The notes under the pieces: generated by a model
The model's input: the letters and a program-made list of their open reading frames with translations, nothing else
Database searches by the model: none
What the model was told of the DNA's origin: nothing
Virus record (IMG/VR): IMGVR_UViG_3300035670_000975
Span: 1 to 29,825 of that record
Reading direction: 5' to 3' (one strand)
Length of the DNA: 29,825 nucleotides
Source: a virus
In this document: piece after piece, positions 5,851 through 29,803 of the stretch
How the letters are laid out: every line of letters starts with the position of its first letter
Numbering within the stretch: the first letter of the stretch is position 1
Made by a program: the position numbers and the translations under genes

Positions 5851-8800
5851 GAAAATCTTTTTACTCCATCTGATGCAGGATACCAAAGAGTTTTGCAATT
5901 GAATGTTGAACCAATTATTGGTAATATAGGAGATTTATCCACAAAAACAATATATCAAGAAAATTCAAATGGCAATATTATTGCCTATGGATCTGTTGTC
6001 GATGTAGAAAATATCAAAAGAGATGGAAAAGAGTTTTATCGAATCAACGTTGATTACAACGAAGATAAAGATATTGTAACATATGGTTCTTTGTATGGAA
6101 AGTTTGTAGTTGATCCTCAAACTAAAGTAATTGATAATGTTTCATCTGGTTCTACATTTATAAATGTAGAATCGACAATTGGATTTGCAAAAACTGGTGA
6201 ATTGTATGTAACATATTCCAATGGAAGTGTTGGAATAGTTACTTATTCGTCAAAAAATATATCTCAATTTTTGAATGTAAACGGAATATTAGATCAAATT
6301 AGTGATACCCAAGAAGTATTCCAAAATAATCTTTCATATGGATACGATTCTGAAGGAAATGAAATTTCTTTTAGAATCAAAGGAAGTATTGGTGATTATA
6401 CTATAAAAGCTACAGATATTGATACGCCATACTTTGTAAAAAATGATATCATACGATTACAGTCTCTTGGATATGATAAAGATAATGTTATTACAGATTC
6501 CCTCATATCTAATGAATCTTCAACATTTGTTATCAAAAATGCAAGAATATTAAGTTCTAACCAATTAGGACAAAATCCAAATATTATTTCTCTTTTTCAA
6601 TTAGAAACTTACGAAAAGCATACTCTAAACGTCGGGGATACAATAAAAACAATTAGTCCAAATGGATATGTTACTACTGGTATTGTTAATAAAATTATTT
6701 CAGATTATTCCTTTGACGTATCTGGTTTGAATGGGTTCAACCCACTTAACAAAGGAAATGTTAAGAGAATATTGACAAAAGTATATTCTCAAAATAATAC
6801 TGTTTCAGAACTTCCTGCTAACGTTGTCAAATCGTTTTATGATGTCAATGACTCAGTTTACATTACTTCTCATTCACTTCCATCATACAGAGATCCAATC
6901 AATGTCAGAACCGGAGTCGTAAATATAAGTGATGGTGGGACTGGAAATGGAATTGTAATTTCTGGCGATACCATCCCTGCTCCAAATCATAGTTTCATAA
7001 CTGGAGATGAAGTTTATTATATTCCAGATAAATTTGTTGAATTAGTTGGAGGATATGGAGAACCGATAGCAATTACGACAGAAAGAACTTTAGGTGATCT
7101 TAGAGAAGGAACTTATTTTGTAAAATCAGTTGACCCCGATAATATTAAATTGTCTCCTTCAAGATCGGAGTTATTTGAAAATAAATTTGTAAATGTATCT
7201 GGTATTGCTAGTTTTCAGCAAATTTATCCAATAAAGTCATATGAAAATTCTTTAGATTCTTCTTATGGCATTAGAAAAATTCCATTTGAAATTACAGAAA
7301 CTTCAAAGTATCATGAAGTTTCTCCAGGAATAGTTGGAGTTTTTATTAACGGTGTAGATATCTTAAGTTATAAGTCTCAAGATTTTTGTTATTACGGCAG
7401 CATTACTAATATTGATGTAACTGCGGGTGGAAGTAATTATGACGTAATCAATCCTCCAAAGATAATTATACAGGATTCTGTTGGATCTGGTGCAACCGCA
7501 ACGGCGACGGTTGTTGGGCAGTTAGAAGCAATTGAAGTTTTAGATGGGGGATCGGATTTTGTCACAAATCCTATCATCACCATAACTGGTGGAAATGGTT
7601 TTGGAGCAGTAGCTAAAGCAAATACTAGAAAAGAAAAACTTATTGCCTTTACAAATACAAGTGTAGGGTCAGGATTTATTTCAACGTCTACAAATACCAT
7701 TGGATTTTCCACATATCATAGATTTAGAAATGGTGACGCGATTGTTTACAGTTCAAATTCGCAAACTCCAATCGGAATTGGGACGCATCAATCTTCTGTT
7801 ATCAGAGATGCTAACTTAGTAGATAATTCAGTATATTATGTGTCAACAATAGGATTGAGTCAGATAAAATTACACACCAGAAAATCTGATGCTTTATCTG
7901 GAATAAACACAATTAATATCACTGATTTTGGACAAGGAAATCAATACTTTACAACCGTTGAATTAAAAAATGTATTATCATCAATAACAATATCTGATAA
8001 AGGATTTGGTTACACTAATAATCCTATTAGAATTTCTTCATCTGGTATTAGTTCTAGCAAAAATCAAATTACTTATAATAATCATGGTTTTTCCAGTGGA
8101 GATCTAATAGAATACAAATATGAAGGTGTGTCGATTTCTGGGTTGACCACCGATCAGCAATATTATGTCTATAAACTAGATGATAGTAATTTCAAACTAT
8201 CTGCAGCAGGAATTGGAACAACAATTTCTGATTATAACTATAAAAATCAAATTTTTGTTGATTTCAAGAATGTCGGAGTTGGAGGAACTCACATATTCAA
8301 CTATCCTCCAATTGTTGTTCAAATTAGTGGTAATGTTGGAATTGAAACCACAAATAATTTAATATTCCAACCAACAGTAAAACCAAAATTTAGAGGGTAT
8401 GTTCAAAAAATAAACCTAGAAAAAACTGGAGTCGGATATGGGTGTTCCGATGTAATTAATTTTGAAAGACAACCTCTAATTTTATTTGATAGTGGTTCTG
8501 GAGCTCAACTAAAACCAATCATATCAAGTGGACAAATTAAAGAAGTTTTTGTTATCAATGGTGGATCTGGATATGTAGCACAACCAGAGTTGAAAATTTC
8601 TGGTTCTGGTTCAAATGCATCATTGACTCCAATTGTTCACAATGGATCTATTACATCGATACAAATTAATGATGGAGGTAGTGGATTTACTACTTTCACT
8701 ACCTTTATCGATGTTATTCCAACTGGTCAAGGAGCAAAGGCAAGAGCAAAAATTCGTAAATGGACTATTAATAATTTTGAGAGATATAAAAATAATCTTA

Positions 8801-11800
8801 GTGTTGATGATGGAATCCTAACAGAGAGTAAAAATCAGTATTCTCGCGGTAGTTATGCTGCAATGACTGCTCCTAGAGCACTTAGAGAACTGATATATGC
8901 AAAGAGTGAAGATGGAGAAACAAAATATGGAGCAGATTCTGTTGATTTAAGAAAAATCAACAATGTTGAGGTATCTTCAGAATATCACTCTCCAATTATT
9001 GGTTGGGCTTTTGATGGACATCCAATTTATGGTCCATTTGCATATGATACTCCTAGAGGAGGATCTGTTCGTGAAATTAGATCTGGATATGACCTAATTC
9101 CTAGTTCTGAAAGACCTCCTGGATTCTCAAACGGGTATTTTATTGAAGATTATGTATTCGCTGGTAATGGTGATTTAGACGAAAAAAATGGAAGATTTGC
9201 AAAAACTCCAGATTATCCTTTTGGCACATATGCGTATTATACCACGATAAATTCTGGACCATCTGAAGGATCTGGAGCATTCAAAAATTATAAATTACCA
9301 CAGTTTCCTTATGTAATCGGGGATTCTTTCAAAGGAAAACCAGATTCATTTAACTTTGACAGAAATATCAATCAGGTTGATTATAACTATGACTTACTTT
9401 TTAGAAATACCCGACCAACAAAAACAAGTAGAAATTTCGGATACAGTGAATACATTAATGATTCCACTGCAGATCCAAGGCAAGTTACGGAAATAACATC
9501 AACTTCAAAAGGATCTGTTACCGGATTTAATGTAGTATCTGCTGGATCTAGTTATAAACCAGGAGATCGTTTAGTTATTGAGGGTTCTCCTCTTTATGGA
9601 AGATCAACCACTGCTCAAATTAAATCTGTTCGTGGAAAAAATATTGTATCTTTGGCATCATCAACTATATCAACAGAAAATCTTGAATTATATGTAAGCG
9701 GTGGTTTAGCAATAGGTTATTGCACATCACCACATCATTTTGAAAATAAAAACAGTATTATAATATCTGGTTTATCAACACATAGTTATTCAAACTTAAA
9801 TGGCAATAAAATAATTAGTAATCCTCAAAGATCATGGTATTTGGGGGATAATCTTGAATCTCCATCTACAACTGGTTTAACAACTACAATTAGTTTGATT
9901 GGTTCATACGACCCTCTCTATTTTAGAGAAAATACTATTATTGGAATTGGACTTAGTGCAGAAAACTTAGAAAAATTAAAAGTTCTAAACATTGATCCGC
10001 AAAATCAATTAGTTCGAGTTCAAAGAAATTATGATGGCACTGTAGGGACTTCATATAGTTTTAGAACTCTTGTACTAGAATATCAAAGTACTTTCAGTTT
10101 TCCAGTAGGTTTTTCAACTTTTACTTCAAATCCACCAAAACTACAAAGATATTTTAATCCTTCAGAAGTTGTTGCTCTTGGGACTGCAACAAGTGTTGGA
10201 ATTGGAACAACGATTTCATATCATCCATTGAATAACATTGCTCCTCCAAATCTTCTACAAAATAATCAATATGAATCTGGAATTGCATTTACTTCAAAAA
10301 TTGTTCCTTTGGGTTCTATTTTGATCTCCAATCATAGTTTTGAAACTGGAGATGAGTTAGTTTATTCAAATGGAGGGGGATCGTCCCTTAGAGTTTGGAA
10401 TGGTATAAATGAATTTGATCTTGAAAATCAATCAAAAGTTTATGCAATAAAAGAATCAGAAAATTTGGTTGGACTAAGCACAACTAAAATTGGTATAGGT
10501 TCTACTGGAACTTATGTTGGTTTAGGTTCAACATCAACAAAACTATTGTTTGTCTCTGTTGGTAGTGGAGTAACACATAGTTTAACACTACAAACAAACT
10601 CTATTACTGCCAACGCAGCAGTGTATGAATCAATATTGACTACAAGCGAAAATCATGGATTAACTTTCAAAGATCAAATTGCAATTATTTCTAAACCAAA
10701 TAAAGAGCAGAGAGTTTTTGTTCAATATAATGATTTCAATAGAAGAATTGTTTTTGATAGAAAAAAATTCGAACCATCTGGAATCAACACTGTAACTAAT
10801 ACTATCAATATTTCAAATCATGGTTTAGAGCAATCCCAAAAAATTATATTTACCACTAATGGATCTGCTCCAAATGGATTAGTTAATAATGAGATGTATT
10901 ATGTCATTGTTATTGACTCTAACAATATTAAGTTGTCTAATCAAAAAATATTCTCATATTCACCAAATCCAACTCCAATAAGAATATCAAGTATCGGCAG
11001 TGGAGAACATTTTATTTCAAAAGTAAACCCACATGTAAATGTATATCGCGGAAATCTTGTTTCTTTTGCGGTGACGGATAGATCCTTATCTGCAACTTCA
11101 GTTGGAACTACGTATCCAGCGTTTAAACTTGAATTTTATAAAGATAACTCCTTTAGGGAAGAGTACATAAGTTCGAAAACAAATAAGCAGTTTGAAGTTG
11201 TTGCCATTGGCACAGTAGGAACAACAGATCCAGCTGCTGTAAATATATCTACAAATGATCTGACTCCTCCAAAACTTTATTATAAATTTACCCCAGTAAA
11301 TATTGATGTAATACCATCATCAAAGTCAGAAATTTTTATTGATGAAGAGCAATCATTTGCAAATACGATTGATGTAATTCCCAGCGTTTATAATGCTGTT
11401 CAATATCCAACGGGAATTGGATCAACCACATTTAGATATCTTTTGAATCAAAATCCAGAATCAGTATCATACGCAAGTTCTGATGGTACTTTTTATTATG
11501 TTACTGACTCTATTACCGCTGCTGGTCCTATAGAATCTGTAGAGGTAAAAAGATCTGGATCTGGATATCTATCACTACCAGGGATTAATTCCATATCAAC
11601 ACAAAATGGAATCAATGGAATTGTTAGATTGTCTGGAAATATGGGTAGAGTTACCAAGATTTCCACTAGAGACACGGGGTATAATTATCCATCGGATCCA
11701 ACATTCAAAATTATTGCTAATGCTCCAGAAATTTTAGAAGTAGAATCATTGAATTCTTTTGAATCTGTTGGAATTATAACTGGAGGAAGAGACTTTTTGG

Positions 11801-14800
11801 TTCCACCAAATCTTGTTGTTCTTGATCCTATTACAAATACTGTAATTCAAGATGTTACCTTAGTTCCTAAAATAAAAAATGGAACTATTACCAGAGTTGA
11901 TGTTACAAGAAATACAAAATCTTTGTCTGATACAAAACCAACCATTATTACAGTAAATAATTCTAACGGAGTTGGTATAAGCACGGTTGGATTTAATACA
12001 ATTACAAAAGAAGTTACGGTACAATTTTCTGTAGGTTTTTCAACACAAAACTCTTTTCCATTTTCTGCTGGTGATAGAGTATTTGTGGAAAATATTGGTA
12101 TTGCATCGGAAGGTTCTGGATACAATTCAAGTGATTATAATTATACATTCTTTGAGTTAACTTCAGTAAATGCAAACATTGGTGGAATAGGATCTGCAAC
12201 ATATAAACTTCATTCTAATGTCAGTGATCCAGGTACGTATTCAACCACCAAATCATATGGAAGAATGATTCCATATTCAAGCTTTCCAGTATTTGATCCT
12301 AAACTAATAAAAAATGATTTTTCTGTTGGTGAAGAACTTGTAACTATTTCTGGATCTGAATCTGTCGAAGGAGTTGTTTCGAGTTGGGACAAAACAAATA
12401 AAATATTAAAAGTAAACAGTAAAAAAGAATTTGCTGTTGGAGATAAAGTCAGAGGTAAAGGATCTGGATCTCTTGCTACAATTGTATCAAAAATAAACGT
12501 AGATTCTTATTTCAACATTGATGCATCTCCATTAGTTGTGAAAGGTTGGAGAAAAGACTCTGGCAAATTGAGTGTCAATGAACAACGACTAATTGATAGT
12601 GATTATTATCAATATTTCTCATATTCACTTAAATCAAAAATTGCATACGATACCTGGAATGATGTTGTTTCTTCTTTGAATCACACTTCAGGATTTAAAA
12701 AGTTCTCTGATCTTACGATTGAATCTAATCCTGAGTTTGATATTACTCCACAAATAAACAGTAATGATGTTGAATCAATTATAGATTTGATTTCGGAAGT
12801 TGAAACGTATTGTGTATTTGATTTTGATTTGGTTTCAGAAAAATCCAAAGAAATTAGTGGAATAACATTCTCTGATGAAATTTTGCTCAGAAATGTACCT
12901 ATCACAGATTATGAAGAATCAGTTGGTAATAGAGTTTTGAGTATTGATGATATAAGCAACTCTTTTAATAATACTCCTAGAGCAGAAAGATATTCTGTTA
13001 TTGATAGATTTCCACTAGTAGGTTCTAGATTTAGAAAATATTTGATAATGGCAAATGATACCCAATTTGTTGATGAAAGACAAATGGCGATCGTTGAACT
13101 TTTGATTGATAACCAAGGAAATGGTTTCGTTCAAGAATATGGTGATGTGCAAACTCAACTCAATGGTTATTTTGATTATCAACAAATTGGTAGTGAAGGT
13201 CAATTATTATTCTATCCAGAAAAATATGAATTCAATGATTATGATATTCATGGTTTGGTTTATAACATTGATAGATCACCACATTCATCTGTTGGTATCG
13301 CTACTTTAGTAGGTGTTCATACAGTTGGGGATATTGTCAGTGTTGAATCTAGAGGAACAACTATTCCTTCTGGAATAACGACCGCAGTAAACATACTTGG
13401 ATTCTCTACAACAAATTATGAATCTGCAAAACTGATAATAGAAGTTGAACATGGCAATAGACATGAAGTTCTGAATATGAATTTAGTTCATAACAATAGT
13501 AACGTGTATGGAGTAGAGTATGGACATATTACTGATAATGATTTAACAACAATTCCTGGACCTTCAATAGGTACTTTTGGAGCGAATATTTCTAGTAATG
13601 TACTTTATCTCAACTTTACTCCTACCGGCATCTCTACCGTTGGATCTGCGTTAACTTTCCACATGCTCGTTACAAAGTTTCATGCTGGAGTTTCAACGGT
13701 AGGAGTCGATACAACTAATTTGACAAATGGAGATTTGATAGCACGATATACTGATATCCCAGCATCATCATCCCCAGGAATTACTACAATAGCAAGTTTT
13801 GGGGTTCATCCAGATGAAGATGCTGCTTATGGAATTATTCAAGTTTATGATGTAACTAACAATAGATATGAATTTTTTGAATCTCTCTATTTGGCAGATA
13901 CAGGCACACTTTCCTATCAAACTTTATTTGGATCCGTTGATGATGATAGTGACAACGTTCACAGTGGAATAGGCACATTTGGTGTTATCAGTGGAAGTAG
14001 TTTGAGAAACATTGTTTACACACCCCCAGCATCTACAAGAACAATAGTTAAAACATTTTTGAATACTGCTGCTCATACAAAAGGTGGTGTTGATGAAATT
14101 ACCTTGGTTAGTTTGAATGATAGTTCTATAGAATCTGTAGAAGGAACTTACACTGGAACTCAATCAGACGTTCTCAGAGCATTCGGTCTATTTCATGGTG
14201 GTGATCCAATTTTTGCTAAATCTTTCGATGCGTCAAGTCCGACAATTGTTGATGTTACAGAAAATTTAATATACATTCCAAATCACTTCTTTACTTCTGG
14301 AGAAAGACTGCGATATGTTCCTTTAGGAACTGGCAGCACATCTTCAATTGGTATTGGAACTACTACTATATCTGGTTATGGATCTACTGATAAACTGCCA
14401 GAATATGTTTATGCAATTAAGGTTGATGACAAGTCAATAAGAGTCGCAGCTTCTGCTCAAGACTCATTAGTATCAAATATTGGCAATTATCTAAATCTAA
14501 CCAGCGTTGGCATAGGCACATCACACTCATTTATATCTCAAGACCAAAATTCAAAATGCATAGTAGCACTAGATAACAACATTCAAGATCCAGTAATTCC
14601 TGCAAATATTACTCATACTCTAATAGAGGAAATGAGTTTTGGTGGTGAATTGATGAGATTGTCTGGAATTACATCATTCTATGGTGGCGATCTTCTCAAA
14701 GTGGAAGATGAGTTCGTGACAATAAAACAAGTTGGATTTGGTAGTACAAATGTTTTTGTTGTACAAAGAGGTTGGATGGGTACAGGATTTTCAACTCATC

Positions 14801-17415: not shown

Positions 17416-17418
17416 ATA
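17411..17418 (+). promoter_or_regulatory. Late promoter box CATAAATA upstream of gp8
   Basis: CATAAATA matches the T4 late consensus TATAAATA at 7 of 8 positions. It overlaps the TAA stop (17413-17415) of the giant gene and lies 17 nt before the gp8 ATG, so a start near 17424 leaves a very short leader. It would give gp8 and the following genes their own late transcript. Confidence 0.65.
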
Positions 17419-17435
17419 ACTAGAAAAAAGTCCAA

Positions 17436-18983
17436 ATGTCTGCCATTATAACTGAACAGCTTCGTATTCTAAATGCAAGTAACTTTAGATCTGGTATTGC
17501 TTCCACTACCAGTTCTTATTACGTTTGGATTGGTTTGCCAAATGCAACTAATATAAGTCCGACTTGGAACACAAGTCCTCCAGCACCAGTTGATTCTTTT
17601 GAAGACTCCAACAGATATTGGGACTCAATCATTGCAATGAAAAGAATTAATTCTTCTGATGTTAGAAGAGTTATTGACAAATATATTTGGACTTCTGGTG
17701 AAAAGTATGATATGTATAGGCAAGATTATAGTAGAAACAATCTTGCCCCTGTATCAAGTGCAACTAATCTTTATAGTGCAAAATATTATGTCCTCAACAG
17801 AGACTATAGAGTTTATGTTTGCTTGGATAATGGCATTTCTCCAGAAAATCCAACTGGAAAACCTTCACTGGATGAACCACTATTTACAGATTTAGAACCA
17901 AGAGCTGCAGGAAGCAGTGGTGATGGATATGTTTGGAAATATCTTTACACATTAACTCCAACGGACATTTTAAGATTTGAATCTACTAATTTTATACCCA
18001 TTCCAGAAAATTGGTCAACTTCTTCTGATAATGCTGCAGTTAGAGACAATGCTGCGACTAGTGGACAATTAAAAATTGTCACGATAACGAATCGTGGTTC
18101 TGGATATGGAACTGCAACTACATATTCAAATGTTAGTATTTTGGGTGACGGAGAAGGAGCAAAAGCAAGTGTAACTGTAAACGCCGAAGGAAAAATTGAA
18201 TCAGTTGATATATCTAATGGTGGATCTGGATATTCCTTTGGAACTTTAGATCTAGACGGTTCTGGTATTACTAATTCATCTTCCAGCACTGATGCTGCAA
18301 CAAATGTAATTATACCTCCTATTGGGGGGCATGGAAGCAACATATACCATGAACTTGGAGCTCGTAAAGTTATGGTGTATTCTCGTTTAGAAAATGATGA
18401 TACTAACCCTGACTTTATAACTGGTAATGAATTTGCTAGAATTGGAATTGTAAAAGATCCTTTGGTTTATAATTCAACATCTACATTGACCGCAAGCAAA
18501 GCTAGTGGTGTCTATGCTCTAAAAGTTACGGCAAGTAATTTGTCTAATATTGTTTTTAATCCGGATGATATTATAACTCAAACAATCGGTATTGGTTCTA
18601 CTGCCATTGGTAGAGTTGTTTCTTGGGACTCTACGACTGGAGTTATAAAGTATTGGCAAGATAATCAAGTAGCAACTTCAGCAACTGTTGGAACACCGCC
18701 TTTATATGGTTACAAATTACTAAGGTTCCAAAATACTCATAATGGAACAGGATCATTTAATATCAATGGTGGAAATGCTACGGTTGCTATAGACACTTCA
18801 TTTAGTGGTGTCTCTACCGTTCTAAATAGTAAGACCTATTACCTAGGGCAAACTTTTGATAAGGGAATATCAAATCCAGAAGTTCAAAGACAGAGCGGTG
18901 AAATCATTTACATTGATAACAGACCGTCTGTATTGAGATCCTCAAATCAAAAAGAAGATATTAAAATTGTTTTAGAATTCTAA
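17436..18983 (+). CDS. gp8: gp8-like baseplate wedge protein with inserted repeat domain
   Basis: It encodes 515 residues against about 334 in T4 gp8, a dimeric wedge protein that binds gp7 and gp10. Recognisable parts are the N-terminal half with SIIAMKRI and YRVYVCLDN, DGYVWKYLYTL (163-173) followed by NFIPIPENW, and the C-terminus SGEIIYIDNRPSVL (487-500), which closely parallels the end of T4 gp8. The extra length is an insertion from about residue 213, two GSGY modules (ITNRGSGYGTATT, ISNGGSGYSFGTLDLDG), plus an IGIGSTAIGRVVSWDSTTG module near 380. The ATG at 17436 follows a late box by 17 nt. The next gene starts 4 nt after its stop. Confidence 0.88.
   Translation: MSAIITEQLRILNASNFRSGIASTTSSYYVWIGLPNATNISPTWNTSPPAPVDSFEDSNRYWDSIIAMKRINSSDVRRVIDKYIWTSGEKYDMYRQDYSRNNLAPVSSATNLYSAKYYVLNRDYRVYVCLDNGISPENPTGKPSLDEPLFTDLEPRAAGSSGDGYVWKYLYTLTPTDILRFESTNFIPIPENWSTSSDNAAVRDNAATSGQLKIVTITNRGSGYGTATTYSNVSILGDGEGAKASVTVNAEGKIESVDISNGGSGYSFGTLDLDGSGITNSSSSTDAATNVIIPPIGGHGSNIYHELGARKVMVYSRLENDDTNPDFITGNEFARIGIVKDPLVYNSTSTLTASKASGVYALKVTASNLSNIVFNPDDIITQTIGIGSTAIGRVVSWDSTTGVIKYWQDNQVATSATVGTPPLYGYKLLRFQNTHNGTGSFNINGGNATVAIDTSFSGVSTVLNSKTYYLGQTFDKGISNPEVQRQSGEIIYIDNRPSVLRSSNQKEDIKIVLEF
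18070..18260 (+). repeat. GSGY module pair inserted in gp8
   Basis: Two copies are visible: IVTITNRGSGYGTATTYSNV and VDISNGGSGYSFGTLDLDG, separated by a GEGAKASVTVN strand. They fall between the DGYVW core and the conserved C-terminus of gp8, where T4 gp8 is shorter. Confidence 0.75.
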
Positions 18984-18987
18984 GAAA

Positions 18988-21900
18988 ATGCCACAGGAAA
19001 CCAATCTCAACATTTCTCCATATCATGATGATTTTGATCCAGCAAAAAATTTCCATAGAATTCTTTTTAAACCAGGAACTCCTGTACAAGCAAGAGAACT
19101 GACTGGTTTACAGTCAATACTTCAAGATCAAATTGAAAAATTTGGCACGCATTTTTTCAAAGAAGGATCTAAAGTAATTCCTGGGCAACTATCATATCTT
19201 GATGTTTTTCCTGGAGTTTGTATAGAGTCTTCATATCTTGGGATTCCAGTTTCACTATATGCATCTCAACTGATTGGAAAAACTATAAGAGGTCAAAATT
19301 CTGGTGTAGAAGCAAGAGTTGAATATGTTCTTTCGGATACAGAATCTGAGAGAACTTTGTTTACGCTATACTTTAATGTTGTTAAATCTGGATCTGATTT
19401 TGTAACTGGAACATTTCAAGACGGCGAAACTTTAATTTTATTAGAAACTCTTTCTTACGGTAACACAACAATTTCAGCAAATCAAGGATTTGCTAATGCT
19501 ATTTCTGTTGAATCAAACGTTCAAGGGTCCGCAGCTAATATTCAATCTGGTGTTTATTTTTTGAGGGGAAATTTTGTAACTATTAATCCTCAAACAATCA
19601 TTCTTTCGCAGTATTCCCCAACACCAACTGTAAAGGTAGGTTTATCCATTCAAGAAGAAATAATAAACGCAGATGAAGATCCGTCTCTAAACGACAATGC
19701 ACAAGGTTTTAGTAATTATTCTGCTCCAGGAGCGGATAGATTAAAAATTACAGCATCTTTGGTTTCAAAACTCATCATTGATAATGATGATCCAAGTTTT
19801 GTTGAATTGATGAGAATACAAAATGGTGAAATAGAAACGTTTGTTGAAAACACTGATTATAATTATATCAAGGCAGAATTTGCTAGAAGAACTTATGATG
19901 AATCTGGCGATTATTACATCAAATCATTTGATATATCAGTAAAAAATACTTTAAATAATTACCTTGGTAATGACGGTATTTACAATCAAGGAGATTTCAC
20001 ATATCAAGGCAATACTCCATCAGATTCTTTGATGGAGTATGTTATTTCCTCAGGAAAAGCATATGTTAGAGGTTTTGAAGTTAATAAACAAACAGATACT
20101 GTAATTGACATTGAAAAACCAAGAACGACAAGACAAGTATTTGCAGAAGCAGTTCCTCTCTCTGTGGGTCCAAAAATTGTCATCAATAATATTCATGGTT
20201 CTCCTGTCGTAGGATTTGGAACTACGATTGCTGCCACTCTCAGAGATCAAAGAGTTGGAGTAGCATCAACTGCTCCGTCAGGTAATGCTATTGGTGAATG
20301 CAGAATTTATGATTATAACTTAGAATCTCAAGTATTTGTAGGTCCAGAATCAGAATATACACTAAGACTTTTTGACATTTCCCCTTATACAAAACTAGAA
20401 GTAACTCAACCTTTTGCTTCATTAAGATCAGGAGCATTTGTTGAAGGAAAGTATAGTGGTGCTTCTGGTTTTGTTGTTGAAGATGCATCTGGAATTTCAA
20501 CCTTCAATCTAAGGCAAGTTAGAGGAACGTTTAATAGAGGGGAAAAACTAGTAATTGATGGAATTGATTATAATACAACAGTATCAATAAGCACAAATTA
20601 TGATATATCAAACGTCAAATCAATATATCAGGGAACAACTGTAGGTGTTTCTACATTCAACGCTGATCTAAAACTGACCACTAAAAGTAGATTTTCGAAT
20701 CCATTCACGATAACTGCTAGAAGTGGAAACCCTGGCGTAAGTACTATATCTGCTCCACAAGGAACCTTTGTCGGTATTATTACTACAAATGATCTTGTTA
20801 GATTCAATGCCATTGACGTTGTATCTCCTATTGTTCTAAAAGTTGAAAGTATTGGATCTGGCGGAACTAGTATAACTCTAGCAGGAATTCAAACGGTAAC
20901 AAATGTAGTTGATGGATCTGCTCCAACTACTAGTCAAACAATTACAAACTTAGAGGTTGTCTCTGGCAATCTAATCAACGTTGAAGATAATTCTCTATTT
21001 ACTAGATTAAATCAAAACAACATTGACAGCGTTGATTTGGGATCTTCAGACTTAATTATTAAAAAGTTTTTTACTAATGTTTCTTCTGCGTCTAGTGCTC
21101 TCTCTTTACCAACAGCAGTAGATAATGAATATTATCTGCCATTCGATGAAGAAAGATATCATGTTGCATACCGCGACGGAACCATAGAACCTTTGACTAG
21201 TGATAAAGTACAAGTATCAACAAATGCAAAAAATGTTACTATATCTGGATTATCAAGAGCATCGGAATCCAATATTAGAGTTAGTGCTGTACTAAACAAA
21301 AATAAAGTTGTAGAAAAGAAAAAATTACTCAAAAATGTATCTTCAATAATAGTATCCCGTTCTTCAAATCCGTCTTCTGGAATTGGATCAACTACTCTTG
21401 GAGATGGTTTGATTTATAGTAATGTTTATGGAACCCGCGTACAAGATAAAGAAATATCGTTGAATAAACCAGATGTTTTAAGAATTCTTGGAATATTTGA
21501 ATCCGATGATTCAAATGATCCAAATTTGCCATCTATAACATTAACATCTATTAGTGGTCCAACACAATCAACTTCTGATTTTATACTTGGCGAAAAAATT
21601 GTTGGGTCTAGCACAAAAGCCGTTGCAAGAATTGTTTCTGCTCTTTCTTCGACTCAATTTGAAATCGTTTATTTGAATGAGAAAGTGTTTTCTTTGGGAG
21701 AAACCATTTCAGCAGAAGTTTCAAAAATTGGAAGCATTTGTGCAAATATTGGACCATCTGATAAAAATGTAACAAATGATTATATCTTAGATAACGGTCA
21801 AAGATCATCTTTTTATGATTATGGAAGAATAATTCTCAAAAAAGGCAGACCTCAACCAAAGAGAAGAGTAAAAATTATATTTCAAAATTTTGAAGTTCCA

Positions 21901-24900
21901 TCAAGTGATACCGGAGATATTTTCACATCAGAAAGTTATGATAATGAACTATATTCAGGCGATATTCCTTCATTTGAAGGAGTCAGAAACACTGATATTT
22001 TAGACATCAGACCAAGAGTTGGTGATTATTCAACAAGTAGCACCAGATCTCCCTTTGATTTTGCCTCTAGAGATTTTACTCAAAGTGGTCAATCGGTTTC
22101 AAACATTTTAGTATCTGATGAGAACATTGTACTAAATTATCAGTACTATCTTGGCAGAATTGATAAAATTTATCTTGATAGTAACGGAAAATTCAATGTG
22201 GTCAGAGGAGTTCCATCTGAAAGTCCACAATTACCTGCTGACTTGGATGGCAATCTAGAAGTTGCAACAATAACTTTACCACCATATCTTTTCTCTCTCG
22301 ATTCGATTCAAATCAAAAGAGCAGAACATAAGAGATACACAATGAAAGATATTGGTAACCTTGATACGAGGATTACCAATTTAGAATATTATACTGCGCT
22401 TTCTTTACTCGAAAAAGAAACTGAAGCATTGACCATACAAGATGCAAGAGGATTTGATAGATTTAAGAGTGGATTTTTTGTTGACAATTTCAAAACTCAC
22501 ATTATTCAAGATCAATCAAATCCAGATTTTGCATGTTCTATTGATACTTATAATAACGAACTTAGACCTCCACACTTTACAACCTCTCTTGACTTAGTTT
22601 TAGCAACAACTGCTATATCAGGAATAGGCGCATCAGTTCCATCAACTAGAGATAGTAGGTTCAATGATGAGGTAATTGATCCAAATCTTAGAAAAACTGG
22701 AGATTTGCTAACTCTAAATTATGCAGATCTAATCTTGATGCAGAATATCTTTGCATCAAGAGTTGAATCTGTAAACCCGTTCTTAGTGACGAAATGGATG
22801 GGTACTCTAACTCTGTATCCATCCTCAGATATTTGGGTAGATCAAAAGATTATAAAAACTAATGAATTTGATGCTCAGGGACCAGATTTCGTAGCATCTG
22901 TTCAGAGATTAGGCATTAATGAAGCAAGTGGATTTGCTGAAATTGAATGGGGATCATGGGTAGATACTGTTGTTGGTAGAGACACAAGAACTTCTGATAC
23001 GACTCAGGTAATCACATCAACAAAGCAACTCAATACTACTGATGATATAAGAACCACTACTACACAAACAGTTAGAACAACTACTGAAGTTCAATTACAT
23101 CAATTAACACGAGAGGGTGTTGCTATAAGAACAACACCTCATATTGAAAAGATAAATGTTGGCAATAAAGTTCTGAATAGGACAAATATTACCTTCATGA
23201 GATCTCGTAATATTGAGTTTAGAGGAACAAGAATGAGACCTGGAACTCAGGTCTATCCAGTTCTGGATAATGTTGGGATGATTGATTATGTTTGTCCTAA
23301 ATTATTAGAAATTCAAATGACCAGTGGCACTTTCCAAGTTGGAGAGACTGTAACTGGAACAATGCTCAAAGATATTCCAGATACTGATATTACACCTGGA
23401 GGTATTCTACCAACCTTCAAATTTAGAGTTGCATATGCAAATCACAAAGATGGTCCATATGATGTACCTACATCAGTATTTTCTTCTAATCCATACAATT
23501 CAGTAGTTACTTTACCAGATGAATATTCATCTACATCAACAATTTTGAATGTAGATACTACTTCTCTTTCCGCTACCACTAGTGGAGAATACTTTGGACA
23601 TCCACGACAAGGAATGGTCTTAAAGGGTCTAACTAGTGGAGCTCAGGCAACAGTAACTAATATCAGACTAATCACTGATGAAGTTGGAAATGTAATTGGT
23701 TCGTTATTCATTCCTGATCCCTCGGCACCAAGTAATCCTCAGTTTATCACTGGATCAAAAATTGTAAAACTAACATCCTTACCAACAATCAATTTTATAT
23801 CATCTCTAAATTCAACTGCTGCGGAAACTGTTTTCCCTGCAAGTGGAGTTTTAGAATTCACTGAAGAAAATATTGTTTCAGTAAGATCGACCGCGATTCA
23901 TAAATCAATATTCCAACAATCCACTTCATCAGAGACAATTCTTGGGTCTTCAAGTTCTGTCATTAGTGAAGTATCTCAAGATACAATTCTTACTAATGTA
24001 AGACAACGACCCGCTGCTAATTGCGACGCTCGCTATGTCGCATACACAACTGCTGTCAACAATGGATATGGTTCATACACAGAATATGCTAGAGCAGTTG
24101 GTGATTATGAAGCTGGTTTAATTTATAACACTGCTGCTCTTCTTACAAGACCTGGAGCACCAAGAGAATGCGGAGCTACATCTCCATCCAGTTCATCAAG
24201 TCGCAGAGCAGGAGGAACGAGAGGATTTGAGGGAAGAACTAGAACACCTGACAGAAGTGGAGGAAGAATTTATAACTTTGATTCTAGTGGAAGATTGATT
24301 CCAACTGGAAATCTTGGATCAACAAGAACTTTATATACTTCAACCAGAATTAGCGGTACTTCCTCAAGAAGTTATAGAAGTAGTTCTAGTTCTAGTTCTA
24401 GAGGTGGTAGATCCAGTGGTGGTGGAAGATCATACAATTTTGATGCCGGTGGAAATCTAATTGCTACTGCAAATCTAGGTTCAACACAAACAGCATTTAC
24501 TAGCAACTGTAGTTCTCCTAGGGATCCATTAGCACAATCATTCTTTATCAATTCTGCTGAAGGTGCATTTATAACTGCAATTGAAGTATTTTTCCAAGCG
24601 AAAGATACCGTTCTTCCCGTCACCATGCAAATTAGAACCATGCGTGACGGAACTCCAACAACTTCAGTAGTTCCATTTAGCGAACTTGATCTTATGCCAT
24701 CGGAAGTCAATATTTCAGATGATGCATCTATTCCTACAAAATTCACCTTCAAGTCTCCAGTTTATCTGAAAGGTAATACCGAATACTCATTTGTTCTTCT
24801 TGCAGATACTCCAAATTATGGGGTTTGGATATCGAGAATGGGTGAAGAGGATATAACAAATTCCTTGACGAATCCAGACGCTCCTCGTCCGGTCATTGCA

Positions 24901-26985
24901 CAACAGCCTTTACTAGGATCTCTCTTCAAGTCACAGAATGGTTCCACATGGGATGCAAGTCAGTTTGAAGATATCAAATTTACAATGTATAGAGCTCAGT
25001 TTACAACAAATACTAGAGCAAATGCTACATTCTATAATCCAATTCTTTCTCTAGGAAATGGTGGAATTGTAAAACTTGGAGAAAATCCCGTAGAGGTTCT
25101 TTCAAAGAGAATAATAGTTGGATTAGGTACTACTCTAAGTTCTGCTCAAGAAGCAATTGTTGTACAAGGTATAAACATCTCCCAAGTAAACAATATTACA
25201 GCTTCTGGAGTCGTAATAGACACATATGGTGCCATAGGATTAGGAAATTCGGTTGGTATTATTAATGCGGGTATTGGTTATACTCCAAGCAGTGGTATTG
25301 AAACATATACCAATGTTTCATTGACTACTTTATCGGGATATGGAAAAAATGCTACTGCTAGTGTTACAGTAAATAATGGCGGAATAACTTCCTGTTTTAT
25401 AACAAATGGTGGAACCGGTTATTCGGTTGGTGATGAACTAGGTATTACAACTCTTGGAAGTAGTACACTAGGAAGAAATGCAAGACTAAGTGTTGGTATT
25501 ATTTCGGCAATCAATTCAATTGAACTTGATTCTGTTCAAGGTATATTCAATACTGGTTCAGCATCTACTATAACGTATAGAAATCAATCTACTGGTGCAG
25601 TAACAGTTTTGACAGGGGTTGTTGCTGATTCAATTACTGAAAATTCTTTATATGATGGTTTGCATTTGAATGTGAGAAATAGAAATCATGGAATGTATTC
25701 GTCGTCAAATGTCGTTAAATTGACGAATATAAGATCGGATATGAGACCAACGACAATTGTTGCAAATGTGGATCAAACCGCTGCCTCAAATATTGCAATT
25801 GCAAATACCTCTAAGTTTGAAATTTTTGAAAACGTTGGCGTTGGAACAACAAATCCAGGATATGCATTATTAGGAAATGAAATTATCTCTTATACAGGAG
25901 TTAACGGATCAGAACTAACGGGTATATCAAGAAATATTGATAATAGTGGTTCATTCTTACATAATGCTGGCGAATACATAACCAAGTATGAACTTAATGG
26001 AATTTCTTTAAGAAGAATCAATAAAGTTCATACTTTGGGAGATGCAACAGTAGAAAATGCTAGAGAACTTGATAATTTCTATGTAAAAATTGATACGTCT
26101 ACAAACGGAATTGATAGATCAACAAATGCAGGTCATCCAAAACTTTATTTTAATTCTACTAAAAAAGTTGGCGGTGATACCGTTACTTCCACTAAGAACA
26201 TTCAATTTGAGACAATTACTCCAAACGTTCAAACACTAATCTTGCCTGGAACTAGTTTGAATGCAAGTGTCAGAACTACTAGTGCAACAAGTGTTGATGG
26301 AGTTGAATCCCCATTTGTAGATTTGGGTTATGAGTCAGTTTCTTTAGATAAACCAAATGATTTATCTACACCAAGAATCGTTGCTTCAAAACTGAATGAG
26401 GATTCAATACTTACAAATCTTCCAGCTAATAGATCATTTACTTTTGACTTAGAATTCAATAGCAACAATTCTTTTGTTTCTCCTGCCGTTGATTTGGATC
26501 GAGTAAACATGGTGTTTACATCTAATCGCTTAAATATGCCAATAAGTGACTATACAACTGATAATTCTGTCACCATAACGGGAAGAGATCCAAACTCTGC
26601 AGTTTATATCACTAAAAAAGTTGATTTATCAAATCCAGCAAACTCAATCAAAGTTCTGTTTAGTGCATATAGGCATGAATCATCCGATATAAGAGTTCTT
26701 TATAAAATATACACTAATGATGCAAATATTGATTCTGTTCCTTATGATTTATTCCCAGGTTACAATAATATCGACGATCTTGGAAACATTATTGACAAAT
26801 CAAACAATAATGGTCTTCCAAATGCTTATGTGACTCCAAGCAAACCAGGTGAATATAAAGATTATGAATTCTTTGTTGATGATCTTCCTGAATTTACAGC
26901 ATTCTCAATCAAGATCATCATGTCTGGTACAAATCAAGCACAACCACCCAAGATTAAAGATCTACGTGTAATTGCAGTTCGATGA
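18988..26985 (+). CDS. Very large DUF4815-type virion structural protein
   Basis: This is one frame of 2665 residues. The N-terminus (NISPYHDDFDPAKNFHRILF, PVQARELTGLQS at 32-43, FGTHFFKEGSKVIPG) is the conserved start of the DUF4815 proteins of T4-like cyanophages and some other tailed phages. Further landmarks are a helical block near 1119 (GNLDTRITNLEYYTALSLLE), a Ser/Gly/Arg-rich repeat region (about 1731-1845), DPLAQSFFINSAEGAF from 1846 continuing through VTMQIRTMRDGTP, GSLFKSQNG and FTMYRAQF, a GSGY module pair near 2090-2170, LLGNEIISYTG near 2293, and a C-terminal beta domain ending IKDLRVIAVR. It lies where T4 keeps genes 9-12 and wac, so it is probably a peripheral baseplate or fibre-like component; that role is inferred. 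Its stop overlaps the next ATG (ATGA). Confidence 0.85.
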   Translation: MPQETNLNISPYHDDFDPAKNFHRILFKPGTPVQARELTGLQSILQDQIEKFGTHFFKEGSKVIPGQLSYLDVFPGVCIESSYLGIPVSLYASQLIGKTIRGQNSGVEARVEYVLSDTESERTLFTLYFNVVKSGSDFVTGTFQDGETLILLETLSYGNTTISANQGFANAISVESNVQGSAANIQSGVYFLRGNFVTINPQTIILSQYSPTPTVKVGLSIQEEIINADEDPSLNDNAQGFSNYSAPGADRLKITASLVSKLIIDNDDPSFVELMRIQNGEIETFVENTDYNYIKAEFARRTYDESGDYYIKSFDISVKNTLNNYLGNDGIYNQGDFTYQGNTPSDSLMEYVISSGKAYVRGFEVNKQTDTVIDIEKPRTTRQVFAEAVPLSVGPKIVINNIHGSPVVGFGTTIAATLRDQRVGVASTAPSGNAIGECRIYDYNLESQVFVGPESEYTLRLFDISPYTKLEVTQPFASLRSGAFVEGKYSGASGFVVEDASGISTFNLRQVRGTFNRGEKLVIDGIDYNTTVSISTNYDISNVKSIYQGTTVGVSTFNADLKLTTKSRFSNPFTITARSGNPGVSTISAPQGTFVGIITTNDLVRFNAIDVVSPIVLKVESIGSGGTSITLAGIQTVTNVVDGSAPTTSQTITNLEVVSGNLINVEDNSLFTRLNQNNIDSVDLGSSDLIIKKFFTNVSSASSALSLPTAVDNEYYLPFDEERYHVAYRDGTIEPLTSDKVQVSTNAKNVTISGLSRASESNIRVSAVLNKNKVVEKKKLLKNVSSIIVSRSSNPSSGIGSTTLGDGLIYSNVYGTRVQDKEISLNKPDVLRILGIFESDDSNDPNLPSITLTSISGPTQSTSDFILGEKIVGSSTKAVARIVSALSSTQFEIVYLNEKVFSLGETISAEVSKIGSICANIGPSDKNVTNDYILDNGQRSSFYDYGRIILKKGRPQPKRRVKIIFQNFEVPSSDTGDIFTSESYDNELYSGDIPSFEGVRNTDILDIRPRVGDYSTSSTRSPFDFASRDFTQSGQSVSNILVSDENIVLNYQYYLGRIDKIYLDSNGKFNVVRGVPSESPQLPADLDGNLEVATITLPPYLFSLDSIQIKRAEHKRYTMKDIGNLDTRITNLEYYTALSLLEKETEALTIQDARGFDRFKSGFFVDNFKTHIIQDQSNPDFACSIDTYNNELRPPHFTTSLDLVLATTAISGIGASVPSTRDSRFNDEVIDPNLRKTGDLLTLNYADLILMQNIFASRVESVNPFLVTKWMGTLTLYPSSDIWVDQKIIKTNEFDAQGPDFVASVQRLGINEASGFAEIEWGSWVDTVVGRDTRTSDTTQVITSTKQLNTTDDIRTTTTQTVRTTTEVQLHQLTREGVAIRTTPHIEKINVGNKVLNRTNITFMRSRNIEFRGTRMRPGTQVYPVLDNVGMIDYVCPKLLEIQMTSGTFQVGETVTGTMLKDIPDTDITPGGILPTFKFRVAYANHKDGPYDVPTSVFSSNPYNSVVTLPDEYSSTSTILNVDTTSLSATTSGEYFGHPRQGMVLKGLTSGAQATVTNIRLITDEVGNVIGSLFIPDPSAPSNPQFITGSKIVKLTSLPTINFISSLNSTAAETVFPASGVLEFTEENIVSVRSTAIHKSIFQQSTSSETILGSSSSVISEVSQDTILTNVRQRPAANCDARYVAYTTAVNNGYGSYTEYARAVGDYEAGLIYNTAALLTRPGAPRECGATSPSSSSSRRAGGTRGFEGRTRTPDRSGGRIYNFDSSGRLIPTGNLGSTRTLYTSTRISGTSSRSYRSSSSSSSRGGRSSGGGRSYNFDAGGNLIATANLGSTQTAFTSNCSSPRDPLAQSFFINSAEGAFITAIEVFFQAKDTVLPVTMQIRTMRDGTPTTSVVPFSELDLMPSEVNISDDASIPTKFTFKSPVYLKGNTEYSFVLLADTPNYGVWISRMGEEDITNSLTNPDAPRPVIAQQPLLGSLFKSQNGSTWDASQFEDIKFTMYRAQFTTNTRANATFYNPILSLGNGGIVKLGENPVEVLSKRIIVGLGTTLSSAQEAIVVQGINISQVNNITASGVVIDTYGAIGLGNSVGIINAGIGYTPSSGIETYTNVSLTTLSGYGKNATASVTVNNGGITSCFITNGGTGYSVGDELGITTLGSSTLGRNARLSVGIISAINSIELDSVQGIFNTGSASTITYRNQSTGAVTVLTGVVADSITENSLYDGLHLNVRNRNHGMYSSSNVVKLTNIRSDMRPTTIVANVDQTAASNIAIANTSKFEIFENVGVGTTNPGYALLGNEIISYTGVNGSELTGISRNIDNSGSFLHNAGEYITKYELNGISLRRINKVHTLGDATVENARELDNFYVKIDTSTNGIDRSTNAGHPKLYFNSTKKVGGDTVTSTKNIQFETITPNVQTLILPGTSLNASVRTTSATSVDGVESPFVDLGYESVSLDKPNDLSTPRIVASKLNEDSILTNLPANRSFTFDLEFNSNNSFVSPAVDLDRVNMVFTSNRLNMPISDYTTDNSVTITGRDPNSAVYITKKVDLSNPANSIKVLFSAYRHESSDIRVLYKIYTNDANIDSVPYDLFPGYNNIDDLGNIIDKSNNNGLPNAYVTPSKPGEYKDYEFFVDDLPEFTAFSIKIIMSGTNQAQPPKIKDLRVIAVR
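24259..24507 (+). repeat. Duplicated GGR-x-YNFD segment flanking an Arg/Ser/Gly linker
   Basis: Residues 1758 onward (GGRIYNFDSSGRLIPTGNLG) and 1812 onward (GGRSYNFDAGGNLIATANLG) are near-identical copies of about 28 residues offset by exactly 54, each followed by an ST-R/Q-T segment. Between them lies a serine/arginine/glycine run rich in SSS, RGG and GGG. It looks like an intragenic duplication forming a flexible linker. Confidence 0.8.
25252..25500 (+). repeat. GSGY module pair in the 2665-residue protein
   Basis: IINAGIGYTPSSGIETYTNV and SCFITNGGTGYSVGDELG flank a GYGKNATASVTVNNGG strand. The layout of the pair matches that in gp8. Confidence 0.75.
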
Positions 26986-27200: not shown

Positions 27201-27574
27201 TGGACGCATCTTTTACATTTGATCCTTCATCAGGGGTTCCTTACGCAATAAATCAAGTAATTTCAACAGGTGCCAGTTTTGTTGCAAATTATAGTGTAAC
27301 AACAATAGGTGGTACATCGTTTAATTTTTCTGGTTATACTGGATCTGCAAAATTAGCAAAATCGGTTGGAGTTGGTGCATCAAATTATGCTCTCAGAACT
27401 TTTTCTGTTGGAATTACGACTGGCAGAATAACTTTAGGATTGACTGCGGCAAATACTGTTGGATTGAAAGAAGGAAGATATCGCTATGATGTATTAGTTA
27501 ATAGTGGAACTACGATTTATAGAATTATCGAAGGAGATTTGATGGTCAAAGCAGGAATTACTTCATCTATCTAA
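27200..27574 (+). CDS. Small beta-rich virion protein
   Basis: It encodes 124 residues from ATG 27200, overlapping the preceding stop (TAATG). It is almost entirely beta-prone with alternating S/T/G/V and the ending EGRYRYDVLVNSG, YRIIEGDLMVKAGIT, a pattern shared by small beta-sandwich domains in tail and baseplate proteins such as BppU-type N-terminal domains. There is no signal peptide or membrane segment. Position immediately before the neck genes and within the late operon suggests a virion component. Family membership is by fold-like pattern only and could be wrong. Its stop lies within the late box that precedes gp13. Confidence 0.7.
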   Translation: MDASFTFDPSSGVPYAINQVISTGASFVANYSVTTIGGTSFNFSGYTGSAKLAKSVGVGASNYALRTFSVGITTGRITLGLTAANTVGLKEGRYRYDVLVNSGTTIYRIIEGDLMVKAGITSSI

Positions 27575-27577
27575 ATA
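27571..27577 (+). promoter_or_regulatory. Late promoter box CTAAATA upstream of gp13
   Basis: CTAAATA is identical to the box before gp25 and overlaps the TAA stop (27572-27574) of the preceding gene. It lies 19 nt before the gp13 ATG, and the strong ribosome-binding site follows within 5 nt. It would start a neck-gene transcript. Confidence 0.6.
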
Positions 27578-27581
27578 GGAT

Positions 27582-27587
27582 AGGAGG
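27582..27587 (+). promoter_or_regulatory. Strong Shine-Dalgarno AGGAGG for gp13
   Basis: AGGAGG lies 9 nt before ATG 27597 and fixes that start. It is the only full consensus ribosome-binding site among the virion genes here. If transcription began about 6 nt after the CTAAATA box, the site would sit at the extreme 5' end of the message. Confidence 0.75.
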
Positions 27588-27596
27588 ACTCGTGAT

Positions 27597-28433
27597 ATGT
27601 CTAAACCATCAAACAGATCTGGTCTAATTGATTATTGTCTAAGACAACTTGGTGCGCCTGTTTTAGAAATCAATATTGCGGACGAACAGATCGATGATCT
27701 AGTAGATGATGCTATTCAATTTTGGCAAGAACGTCACTATGATGGCGTCATGCAAATGTATTTGAAATATCAAATAACACAAGCAGATATTAATAGAGGT
27801 AGAGCACCCTCTGGAAATGATCCAACTGCTGGTATTGTAAATACAACTGTAAATGATACTTTAGGAACGTTCACATACAAAGAAAATAGTAATTATATAA
27901 AACTTCCTGATTCAGTTATTGGTGTAAATAAAATATTCAAATATGATGGTTCACAAACTGTTTCTAATAACATGTTTAGTGTAAAGTATCAACTTTTTCT
28001 AAATGATGTTTATTATTTTGATTCATTAGAATTACTAACATATTCAATGGTAAAAACAAAGTTAGAGGACATTGATTTTCTATTGAATACTGAAAAGCAA
28101 ATAAGATTTAATATTAGGCAGCAAAGATTATATTTGGATGTAGATTTTGGAGATTTAGCAGTTGGTGATTGGTTAATTATTGATTGTTGGAGAGTATTAG
28201 ATCCTAATGATTTTACCAAAGTTTATAATGACAGATTTTTGAAGATGTACCTTACTTCTCTTATGAAAAAACAGTGGGGACAAAATCTGATTAAATTCCA
28301 AGGAGTCAAACTACCCGGTGGAGTTGAACTAAATGGAAGGCAAATTTACGATGATGCGGTTATTGAATTGGATAAGATCAGAGAACAGATGCTTTCAACA
28401 TACGAAATTCCACCTCTGGACATGATCGGATAA
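27597..28433 (+). CDS. gp13: gp13-like neck protein
   Basis: It encodes 278 residues, slightly shorter than T4 gp13 (about 309). gp13 and gp14 form the neck that closes the filled head and accepts the tail. The N-terminus SGLIDYCLRQLGAPVLEINI followed by DEQIDDLVDDAIQFWQERHYD is the hallmark of this family. Further support comes from the central ENSNYIKLPDSVIGVNKIF segment and the C-terminal EQMLSTYEIPPLDMIG. A strong AGGAGG and a late box precede it. The stop overlaps the gp14 start (TAATG), so the two neck proteins are coupled, as expected for partners made in proportion. Confidence 0.92.
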   Translation: MSKPSNRSGLIDYCLRQLGAPVLEINIADEQIDDLVDDAIQFWQERHYDGVMQMYLKYQITQADINRGRAPSGNDPTAGIVNTTVNDTLGTFTYKENSNYIKLPDSVIGVNKIFKYDGSQTVSNNMFSVKYQLFLNDVYYFDSLELLTYSMVKTKLEDIDFLLNTEKQIRFNIRQQRLYLDVDFGDLAVGDWLIIDCWRVLDPNDFTKVYNDRFLKMYLTSLMKKQWGQNLIKFQGVKLPGGVELNGRQIYDDAVIELDKIREQMLSTYEIPPLDMIG

Positions 28434-29803
28434 TGACCCTAAATCCATACTTTACTCAGGGAACTAGAGGAGAACAAGGTCTTGTTCAAGACCTCATTAA
28501 TGAACAACTTCGCATGTATGGAGTTGAAATCTATTATATTCCTAGAAAATATGTAACTCAAAATACAGTTATCAAAGAAGTTATTCAATCTAAGTTTGAT
28601 GATGCATATCCAATAGAGGCATATGTAAAATCTGAAGGGTATGAAGGTGCTGGAACCATACTCTCAAAATTTGGAGTGATGGAACAGGATGATGTAACAT
28701 TGATTATATCAAGAGAAAGATGGGAAAATTATATTCAACCACTAATAAAAAATGAACAAAACATAAAACTATCAAAGAGACCAAAAGAAGGAGATTTAAT
28801 TTATTTTCCTCTTGACGATAGATTGTATGAAATTAAGTATATTGATTACGCAAATCCATTCTATCAACTACAAAAACTTTACACCTATGAAATGAGGTGT
28901 GAGTTGTTTAGGTATGAAGACGAAGTTATTGACACTGGAATCAATAATATTGACGACAGTATGCAAGATGCAGGTTATACCGAAACTCTTACATTACTCG
29001 GCGTTGGAGTAACAGCAACAGCAACAGCAACATTTGTAAATGGTGGATTGCAATTTATTAGATTGCTAAATGATGGTTTTGGATATACTTCAACACCAAT
29101 AGTTGCAATATCTTCTGCATCTTCTGGTGGATTTACGGCCACCGCAGTTGCAATAACAACATCCAAAGTTGGACTTGCAACACAATCCTCAATTAAACAA
29201 GTTTTACTTACAAACCCAGGGTATGGGTATACAGTTCCTCCATCTGTAGTTTTTGTTGGTGGAGGAGGATCTGGTGCAGCAACAACTGTGGGAATTGCAA
29301 CAACTGGAGGAGTTGGAATAATTACTATTACGAATAGTGGTTCTGGATACTCCACAACACCAACAGTTACATTTAGTTCTCCTGGTGCTGGTATTACTGC
29401 AATTGGAGAAGCCGTTGTTTCATCATCTGGAACAATAACTGCTATTAGAATTTCAAACGCTGGTTATGGATATACAACATCTCCGATTATAACTATTTCA
29501 AATCCTTCTATGATTGGATCTGGTGATTTCATTTATAATGAAGTTGTGACTGGATCTATTTCTGGAACTCAAGGTAGAGTAAAAGTTTGGAATGCTTTAG
29601 ATAAAACCTTAAAAGTTTCAATTGCAGATGGAACATTCACCTCAGGAGAAACAATTACTGGTTCAGAGTCTGGAGCAGTTTATACTTTACAACGATCTAA
29701 CACGGATGATCTTCTTGACACATATGCCGAAAATGATGTCATTCAGTCTGAGGCAGATGCTATTTTGGACTTTTCTCAGAAAAATCCATTTGGAGAGGTG
29801 TAA
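28433..29803 (+). CDS. gp14: gp14-like neck protein with inserted GSGY repeat domain
   Basis: It encodes 456 residues against about 256 in T4 gp14. The neck core is clear: LNPYFTQGTRGEQGLVQDLI, RMYGVEIYYIPRKYV, YEGAGTILSKFG, GDLIYFPLDDRLYEI (from 120) and NPFYQL (141-146). The C-terminus SEADAILDFSQKNPFGEV (439-456) completes it. Between about 185 and 415 sits an insertion of GSGY modules (LNDGFGYTSTPIVAI, LTNPGYGYTVPPSVVFV, ITNSGSGYSTTPTVTF, ISNAGYGYTTSPIITI) and a GE-TITGSESGA module. The inserted block could project from the neck. The start overlaps gp13's stop. A late-type box lies 6 nt after its stop, presumably for the next gene (gp15 in T4 order). Confidence 0.9.
   Translation: MTLNPYFTQGTRGEQGLVQDLINEQLRMYGVEIYYIPRKYVTQNTVIKEVIQSKFDDAYPIEAYVKSEGYEGAGTILSKFGVMEQDDVTLIISRERWENYIQPLIKNEQNIKLSKRPKEGDLIYFPLDDRLYEIKYIDYANPFYQLQKLYTYEMRCELFRYEDEVIDTGINNIDDSMQDAGYTETLTLLGVGVTATATATFVNGGLQFIRLLNDGFGYTSTPIVAISSASSGGFTATAVAITTSKVGLATQSSIKQVLLTNPGYGYTVPPSVVFVGGGGSGAATTVGIATTGGVGIITITNSGSGYSTTPTVTFSSPGAGITAIGEAVVSSSGTITAIRISNAGYGYTTSPIITISNPSMIGSGDFIYNEVVTGSISGTQGRVKVWNALDKTLKVSIADGTFTSGETITGSESGAVYTLQRSNTDDLLDTYAENDVIQSEADAILDFSQKNPFGEV
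28985..29510 (+). repeat. Tandem GSGY modules inserted in gp14
   Basis: Four or five successive copies of about 35-45 residues repeat the N-x-G-x-GY-x-T-x-P-x-V/I-x-I/F pattern separated by G/A-rich strands. They divide the conserved gp14 core from its conserved C-terminus. Confidence 0.8.

Follow-up and report, generated by a model that had tools for sequence, protein, structure and literature searches.

Do the similar glycine- and tyrosine-bearing repeats in four different virion proteins of one virus genome share an origin, and, if they do, how did they come to their genes and what may they do on the virion? This question is raised by the window considered here, 29,825 bases that make up the full length of a virus record, which carries a tail and neck operon of the Kyanoviridae (T4-like cyanophage) type. 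Its genes are arranged in the order gp25, gp6, gp7-like, gp8, DUF4815, a small fibre-assembly-like ORF, gp13 and gp14, the same as in the Synechococcus phage S-SM2 (Kyanoviridae). An earlier note on this DNA had proposed that a single module, here called the GSGY unit, is inserted into four virion genes between positions 7402 and 29510, was transferred between them within the genome and has a common surface role.

The four genes lie on the + strand. The gp7-like giant (5185..17415, 4076 aa) was assigned to phrog_2885, baseplate wedge subunit (E 0), and occupies the position of gp7 in S-SM2. It is followed by the baseplate wedge protein gp8 (17436..18983, 515 aa; PF09215, Phage-Gp8, 2.9e-13) and the DUF4815 (VrlC-like) virion protein (18988..26985, 2665 aa; PF16075, 8.8e-65). 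The neck protein gp14 (28433..29803, 456 aa) has an N-terminal core homologous to T4 gp14 (PF11649, 6.4e-31 over residues 3-179; T4 gp14 PDB chains, 1.2e-27). The small ORF at 27200-27574 matches an L-shaped tail fibre assembly family (phrog_3304, 2.9e-15). No sheath gene was found within the window, and a search of a plasmid collection gave no match.

The GSGY unit and its copies in four virion genes

A GSGY unit consists of about 40 amino acids, has three strands and often occurs in tandem. The strict motif N-x-G-x-GY was found four times in the gp7-like protein, twice in gp8, twice in the DUF4815 protein and four times in gp14, with means of 0.14, 0.02, 0.04 and 0.01, respectively, in composition shuffles; neither gp6 nor gp13 nor the small ORF of the window has it. 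Of the motif trio that had been attached to the module, this part stood, while the literal strings PP-x-V-x-I and GxGAxA turned out to be rare in the window proteins (2 and 4 matches). The module is defined by the GxGY loop and the three-strand pattern, and not by these two strings.

Using HMMs from which one gene at a time was left out, the held-out gp14 was recovered at 7.7e-16, gp8 at 5.5e-7 and the gp7-like protein at 1.5e-5, the best decoy having E 0.25. An HMM made from gp14 only (217 units) matched the gp7-like protein at 9e-9 and gp8 at 1e-5 (Z=1e5), and in the control one of 4146 reversed ORFs was hit, at E 1.4. In hhalign comparisons each region was represented by a profile of its orthologues alone, which kept the sequences of the other genes out of it, and 26 of the 28 region pairs reached a probability of 89-99.9%; the exceptions were one gp7-like cluster (aa 2100-2240) against gp8 (20%) and against DUF4815 (27%). 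Against other stretches of these proteins (n=88) and in reversed comparisons (n=64), the best values were 8% and 5%, respectively. AlphaFold models of gp8 and gp14, each read separately, share a predicted pattern of strand, strand, GxGY loop and short strand.

It may be asked whether low-complexity glycine-rich beta turns have simply come to look alike without a common origin, since the units are short and biased in composition and the DUF4815 copy of the window is invisible to HMMER. However, comparable scores were obtained neither with reversed profiles, nor with shuffles, nor with other regions of these proteins, and most cross-gene alignments span 43 to 133 columns. Such convergence is in our opinion highly improbable, and for gp14, gp8 and the gp7-like protein it is largely refuted. 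The repeats of the four proteins almost certainly belong to one homologous family, as judged from their sequences, and the link across genes, the lack of which was to speak against the idea of one module, was found. Nor did the models of gp8 and gp14, compared by their strand pattern, show the differing folds that the earlier note had named as the other refutation.

Barrels of eIF2-gamma, EF-Tu and ATP synthase, retrieved with the gp14 model (residues 180-424) by Foldseek and VIA-align, were rejected as relatives, because 62-74 residues at Z ~6 are typical of common small barrels. When the gp14 array was compared by sequence with solved structures, chance matches of the ribosomal L18 type only were obtained (E 0.5).

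Six clusters had been claimed in the gp7-like giant, and all of them were borne out and given coordinates. Cluster 1 (7387..7629, aa 735-815) has about 2 units and is related by hhalign to gp14 (97%), gp8 (92%) and DUF4815 (89%). A lone unit at 7957..8079 (aa 925-965) was recognised by the gp14-only HMM (13.1 bits) and has an orthologue in S-SM2, and about 3 units follow at 8392..8769 (aa 1070-1195; 98% to gp14, 97% to gp8). The most diverged cluster, which gave the two low values mentioned above, lies at 11482..11904 and is related to gp14 at 95%; the remaining two are placed at 15292..15819 (aa 3370-3545; 97% to gp14, 96% to DUF4815) and 16567..16839 (aa 3795-3885; 98.6% to gp14). The first of these clusters and the last unit of gp14 fit the ends of the proposed span. 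A YHYH domain (PF14240, 4.9e-23) is also present in the giant, at 8971-9252 (aa 1263-1356). In S-RIM8, a frame of ~6395 aa (L214:2431-21618), located between gp6 and a gp9-like gene, contains 21 GSGY units, more than were seen anywhere else.

In gp8, a pair of units, recognised by HMM and hhalign, occupies 18018..18311 (aa 195-292) and is absent from T4 gp8 according to the alignment. The core of the protein is homologous to T4 gp8, and its AlphaFold model (mean pLDDT 80.8, pTM 0.75) superposes on 1n7z with Z 18.1. By alignment, Kyanoviridae share the pair with Pelagibacter phage HTVC008M, phiM12 and X1, and T4 does not have it; an old origin, or a loss in T4, accounts for this distribution.

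The weakest copy is that of the DUF4815 protein (25210..25542, aa 2075-2185), related by hhalign to gp8 (97%), gp14 (96%) and three gp7-like clusters (~96%) and matching the gp8 family phrog_438 at 1.9e-4. HMMER searches with the leave-one-gene-out and gp14-only module HMMs gave no match in the DUF4815 protein of the window, and this copy is detectable by profile-to-profile comparison only. At ~24300-24650 the same protein has a Ser/Arg/Gly-rich linker (RSSSSSSSRGGRSSGGG) and two similar YNFD-x-x-G-x-L-I segments.

Insertions into gp14 and the age of the copies

The earlier note described gp8 and gp14 as otherwise T4-like proteins split where T4 is shorter, and Pfam matches and alignments agree with this: the core domains of T4 gp14 and gp8 are clear homologues of those in the window, whereas the GSGY insertions are lacking in T4. 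In gp14 of the window, four tandem units (28973..29518, aa 181-362) were delimited by alignment with gp14 having no, one, four or more units, and a small beta domain (29525..29713, aa 365-427) by aligning the flanks with the empty-site gp14 of S-PM2 and P-RSM6. In the AlphaFold model, which is mediocre overall (pTM 0.49), the array has pLDDT mostly ~90.

According to the alignment, gp14 of T4, phiM12, X1, S-PM2, P-RSM6 and S-B68 has no unit, that of S-RIM8 and ACG-2014h has one clear unit, and that of the window and S-SM2 has four. More than four units are present in gp14 of S-8S56 (644 aa), and a much longer array was found in gp14 of L006 (L006:1958-4498; 846 aa), which is ~68% identical to that of the window in the shared part. 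The flanks reveal two insertion sites about 15 residues apart. The empty site of P-RSM6 reads NLVAGGTGTFTVGETITGGTSNVSAEVKSF; at site 1, the window type, the units precede the strand SGDFIYNEVVTG, and at site 2, the S-RIM8 type, they are located between TVGEEVVG and RAEVKSW. The presence of two sites thus points to at least two insertions into the same small domain. Empty sites in relatives of the same virus family support the insertion of modules into gp14, and the units are very probably true insertions. A fresh tandem duplication was rejected as the source of the gp14 arrays, because gp14 of the window and of L006 contains only short DNA repeats, which are no more than 83% alike.

A second shared beta module, of the form GE-x-I-x-G ... 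SG, was observed in gp14 (29525-29713, aa 365-427), in the gp7-like protein (12277-12504, aa 2365-2440) and in the DUF4815 protein (20350-20667, aa 455-560). By hhalign, gp14 is related to the gp7-like copy at 97% and to the DUF4815 copy at 93%, and the other pairs are weak. The GSGY array of gp14 is inserted into this second module or adjoins it.

Transfer of modules within the genome had been suggested as the source of the copies, and recent transfer is not supported. Among 103 units of seven phages, the nearest unit belonged to the same gene of another genome in 44 cases (16 expected) and to another gene of the same genome in 8 (7.4 expected). Since the nearest units are mostly orthologous and cross-gene cases are at expectation, the copies have long been resident in their genes. 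The order of units is also kept across phages. The sole clear case of sharing within a genome was seen in Xanthomonas phage X1, between the sheath gene and a 216-aa ORF (69% DNA identity, 208 bp).

Among PHROG families, 16 were matched by the gp14 array, mostly of head, tail or connector proteins. A further match was obtained in S-PM2, to the frame of the gp5 hub-lysozyme, and each of the six large IMG/VR relatives that were tested had matching frames of gp14 and of gp7-like size. Copies are present in the phage tail-fibre families phrog_5342 and phrog_17885 too. One narrow scan of cellular genomes found copies in MAGs of Verrucomicrobiaceae and Kiritimatiellaeota, where they sit in large autotransporter-like bacterial surface proteins, and no match in marine Synechococcus or Prochlorococcus. 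A match in a Candidatus Hodarchaeum mangrovi MAG (L217, contig JAEOUE010000110.1) was rejected as archaeal; the contig encodes Kyanoviridae-like gp13 and gp14 and therefore is probably phage contamination.

A probable remote relation to domain I of the T4 sheath protein

T4 had been taken as a phage without the module. This holds for its gp8 and gp14, and it does not hold for T4 as a whole, because domain I of its sheath protein gp18 (PF22639) appears to be a remote member of the family. PF22639 matches the gp7-equivalent of X1 at 9.5e-7, just over the cut-off, and falls below the cut-off in the ACG-2014f DUF4815 protein and the gp7-like proteins of S-8S56 and HTVC008M. A gp18 domain I HMM built from Straboviridae only and the GSGY HMM match the same stretches of X1 and V45v66. 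A bridge profile composed of these gp7-equivalent stretches was related at 99% to gp18 domain I and at 91-96% to gp14, DUF4815 and three gp7-like clusters of the window, with controls not exceeding 1.1%. When the X1 stretch was compared with the whole PDB, the first six matches were T4-type sheath proteins (residues 99-168, E 0.004-0.04).

Direct hhalign comparisons of gp18 domain I with the window modules were weak (0.8-66%). At E 1, PF22639 matched none of the window proteins, and so the window modules are filed as its remote relatives and not as its members. The gp8 module model (residues 213-294) aligned with domain I of 3foa (99-187), which has the fold of a six-stranded barrel, over 74 residues with Z 5.7, a level that unrelated barrels also reach, and the gp14 array was not among the listed model matches to 3foa. 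The X1 sheath contains GSGY units as well (gp14-only HMM, 8e-13), placed elsewhere than domain I of T4, and its module had no match in the PDB by sequence.

Domain I of T4 gp18 (3FOA, 3FO8) is, like the window modules, an inserted beta domain with a G-x-[GN]-Y loop. It differs in lying in the sheath and in having one clear motif and an alpha helix, whereas the window modules are tandem, occur in gp7-like, gp8, DUF4815 and gp14 and lack a direct PF22639 match. Taken together, the sequence comparisons make it likely that gp18 domain I is a remote member of a GSGY superfamily. This domain juts out from the sheath and serves as a binding site for the baseplate and for long tail fibres in their retracted state; retraction of the fibres is inhibited by the mutations G106S, S175F and A178V within the domain (PMC3004832). 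If numbering starts after the initiator Met, G106 is the glycine that opens GSNY.

A second motif, GKNY, in GenBank T4 gp18 was dropped as support, since close relatives read AKII there. In AF158101.6 (L172:20537-22516) GKNY stands at residues ~147-150, where T4-like relatives have AKII or similar, and this looks like a local sequence discrepancy of the GenBank record.

Possible role on the virion surface

We propose that GSGY units are insertable surface domains of contractile-tail virion proteins, which would jut out from the neck and baseplate and may act in docking or spacing other components of the virion, such as fibres and peripheral proteins. In T4, residues 178-256 of gp14 lack order until the tail is joined and then bind gp15 (PMC12270204). 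The cyanophage gp14 array begins near the start of this gp15-contacting C-terminal arm; if it exits there, it should be located outside the head-tail junction. The suggestion of docking or spacing relies on the analogy with gp18 domain I and its binding of retracted long tail fibres and baseplate, and we regard this function as plausible at somewhat less than even chance. A common surface role across the proteins is compatible with the gp18 link, and the cellular copies in large bacterial surface proteins indicate that the family need not serve fibre docking. As a whole, the explanation by homologous insertable surface modules with a docking or spacer role has, in our opinion, about an even chance of being correct.

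Two other readings should be weighed against it. The tandem units could enlarge or stiffen the neck and baseplate as a passive spacer or cement, with no specific partner and with a drifting number, and the range from none to more than four units in gp14 of related phages does show that no fixed number is needed. The glycines and the tyrosine of the GxGY loop, however, vary little or not at all among 36 gp14 proteins, which together with the kept order of units suggests a maintained surface, and a purely passive function seems rather doubtful. The units might instead bind lipopolysaccharide, capsule or other glycans of the host, making weak many-point contacts before the fibres bind. The copies in the two tail-fibre families and in autotransporter-like bacterial proteins fit such adhesion, and accessory sheath domains have been proposed to help adsorption (PMC9230969). 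A first contact is hardly to be expected at the neck, though, nor in the wedge protein gp8, whose copy is old, and no carbohydrate-binding module family matched the window proteins above the cut-off, the best being CBM_2 on gp14 (E 0.35, 11.7 of 24 bits); adhesion to the host surface is thus considered unlikely.

The preferred reading, that of insertable docking or spacer modules, has parallels in known systems. Tail sheath proteins carry accessory, often Ig-like, beta domains on a conserved core, away from the tube (PMC9230969); GSGY units are likewise beta domains added to a conserved core, but they have no Pfam Ig-like match and belong to neck and baseplate proteins. Exchange of homologous domains between phage structural proteins of different function, neck proteins included, is described in the consulted part of PMC10684548 as a general phenomenon, to which the window conforms; the GSGY family and the gp14 insertion series were not found in that part. 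The open-access literature yielded no paper on GSGY phage repeats and no description of the family across neck, wedge and sheath, which is weak evidence of absence, and likewise no description of the remote gp18 domain I tie or of the two-site gp14 series.

It may be speculated, with little confidence, that contractile-tail phages share a mobile docking cassette repeatedly inserted into neck, wedge, hub and sheath, whose copy number would tune the holding of fibres and peripheral proteins, the fibre-retraction site of T4 gp18 being one descendant. Through the findings, a single building block is recognised in several architecturally unclear cyanophage virion proteins, among them giants of more than 2600 and 4000 aa, and this block gains a probable distant relative in T4, for which both a structure and genetics are available. 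The gp14 insertion is seen empty, single, four-fold and larger, at two sites, within one virus family, and the role of the module can therefore be addressed by comparing natural variants.
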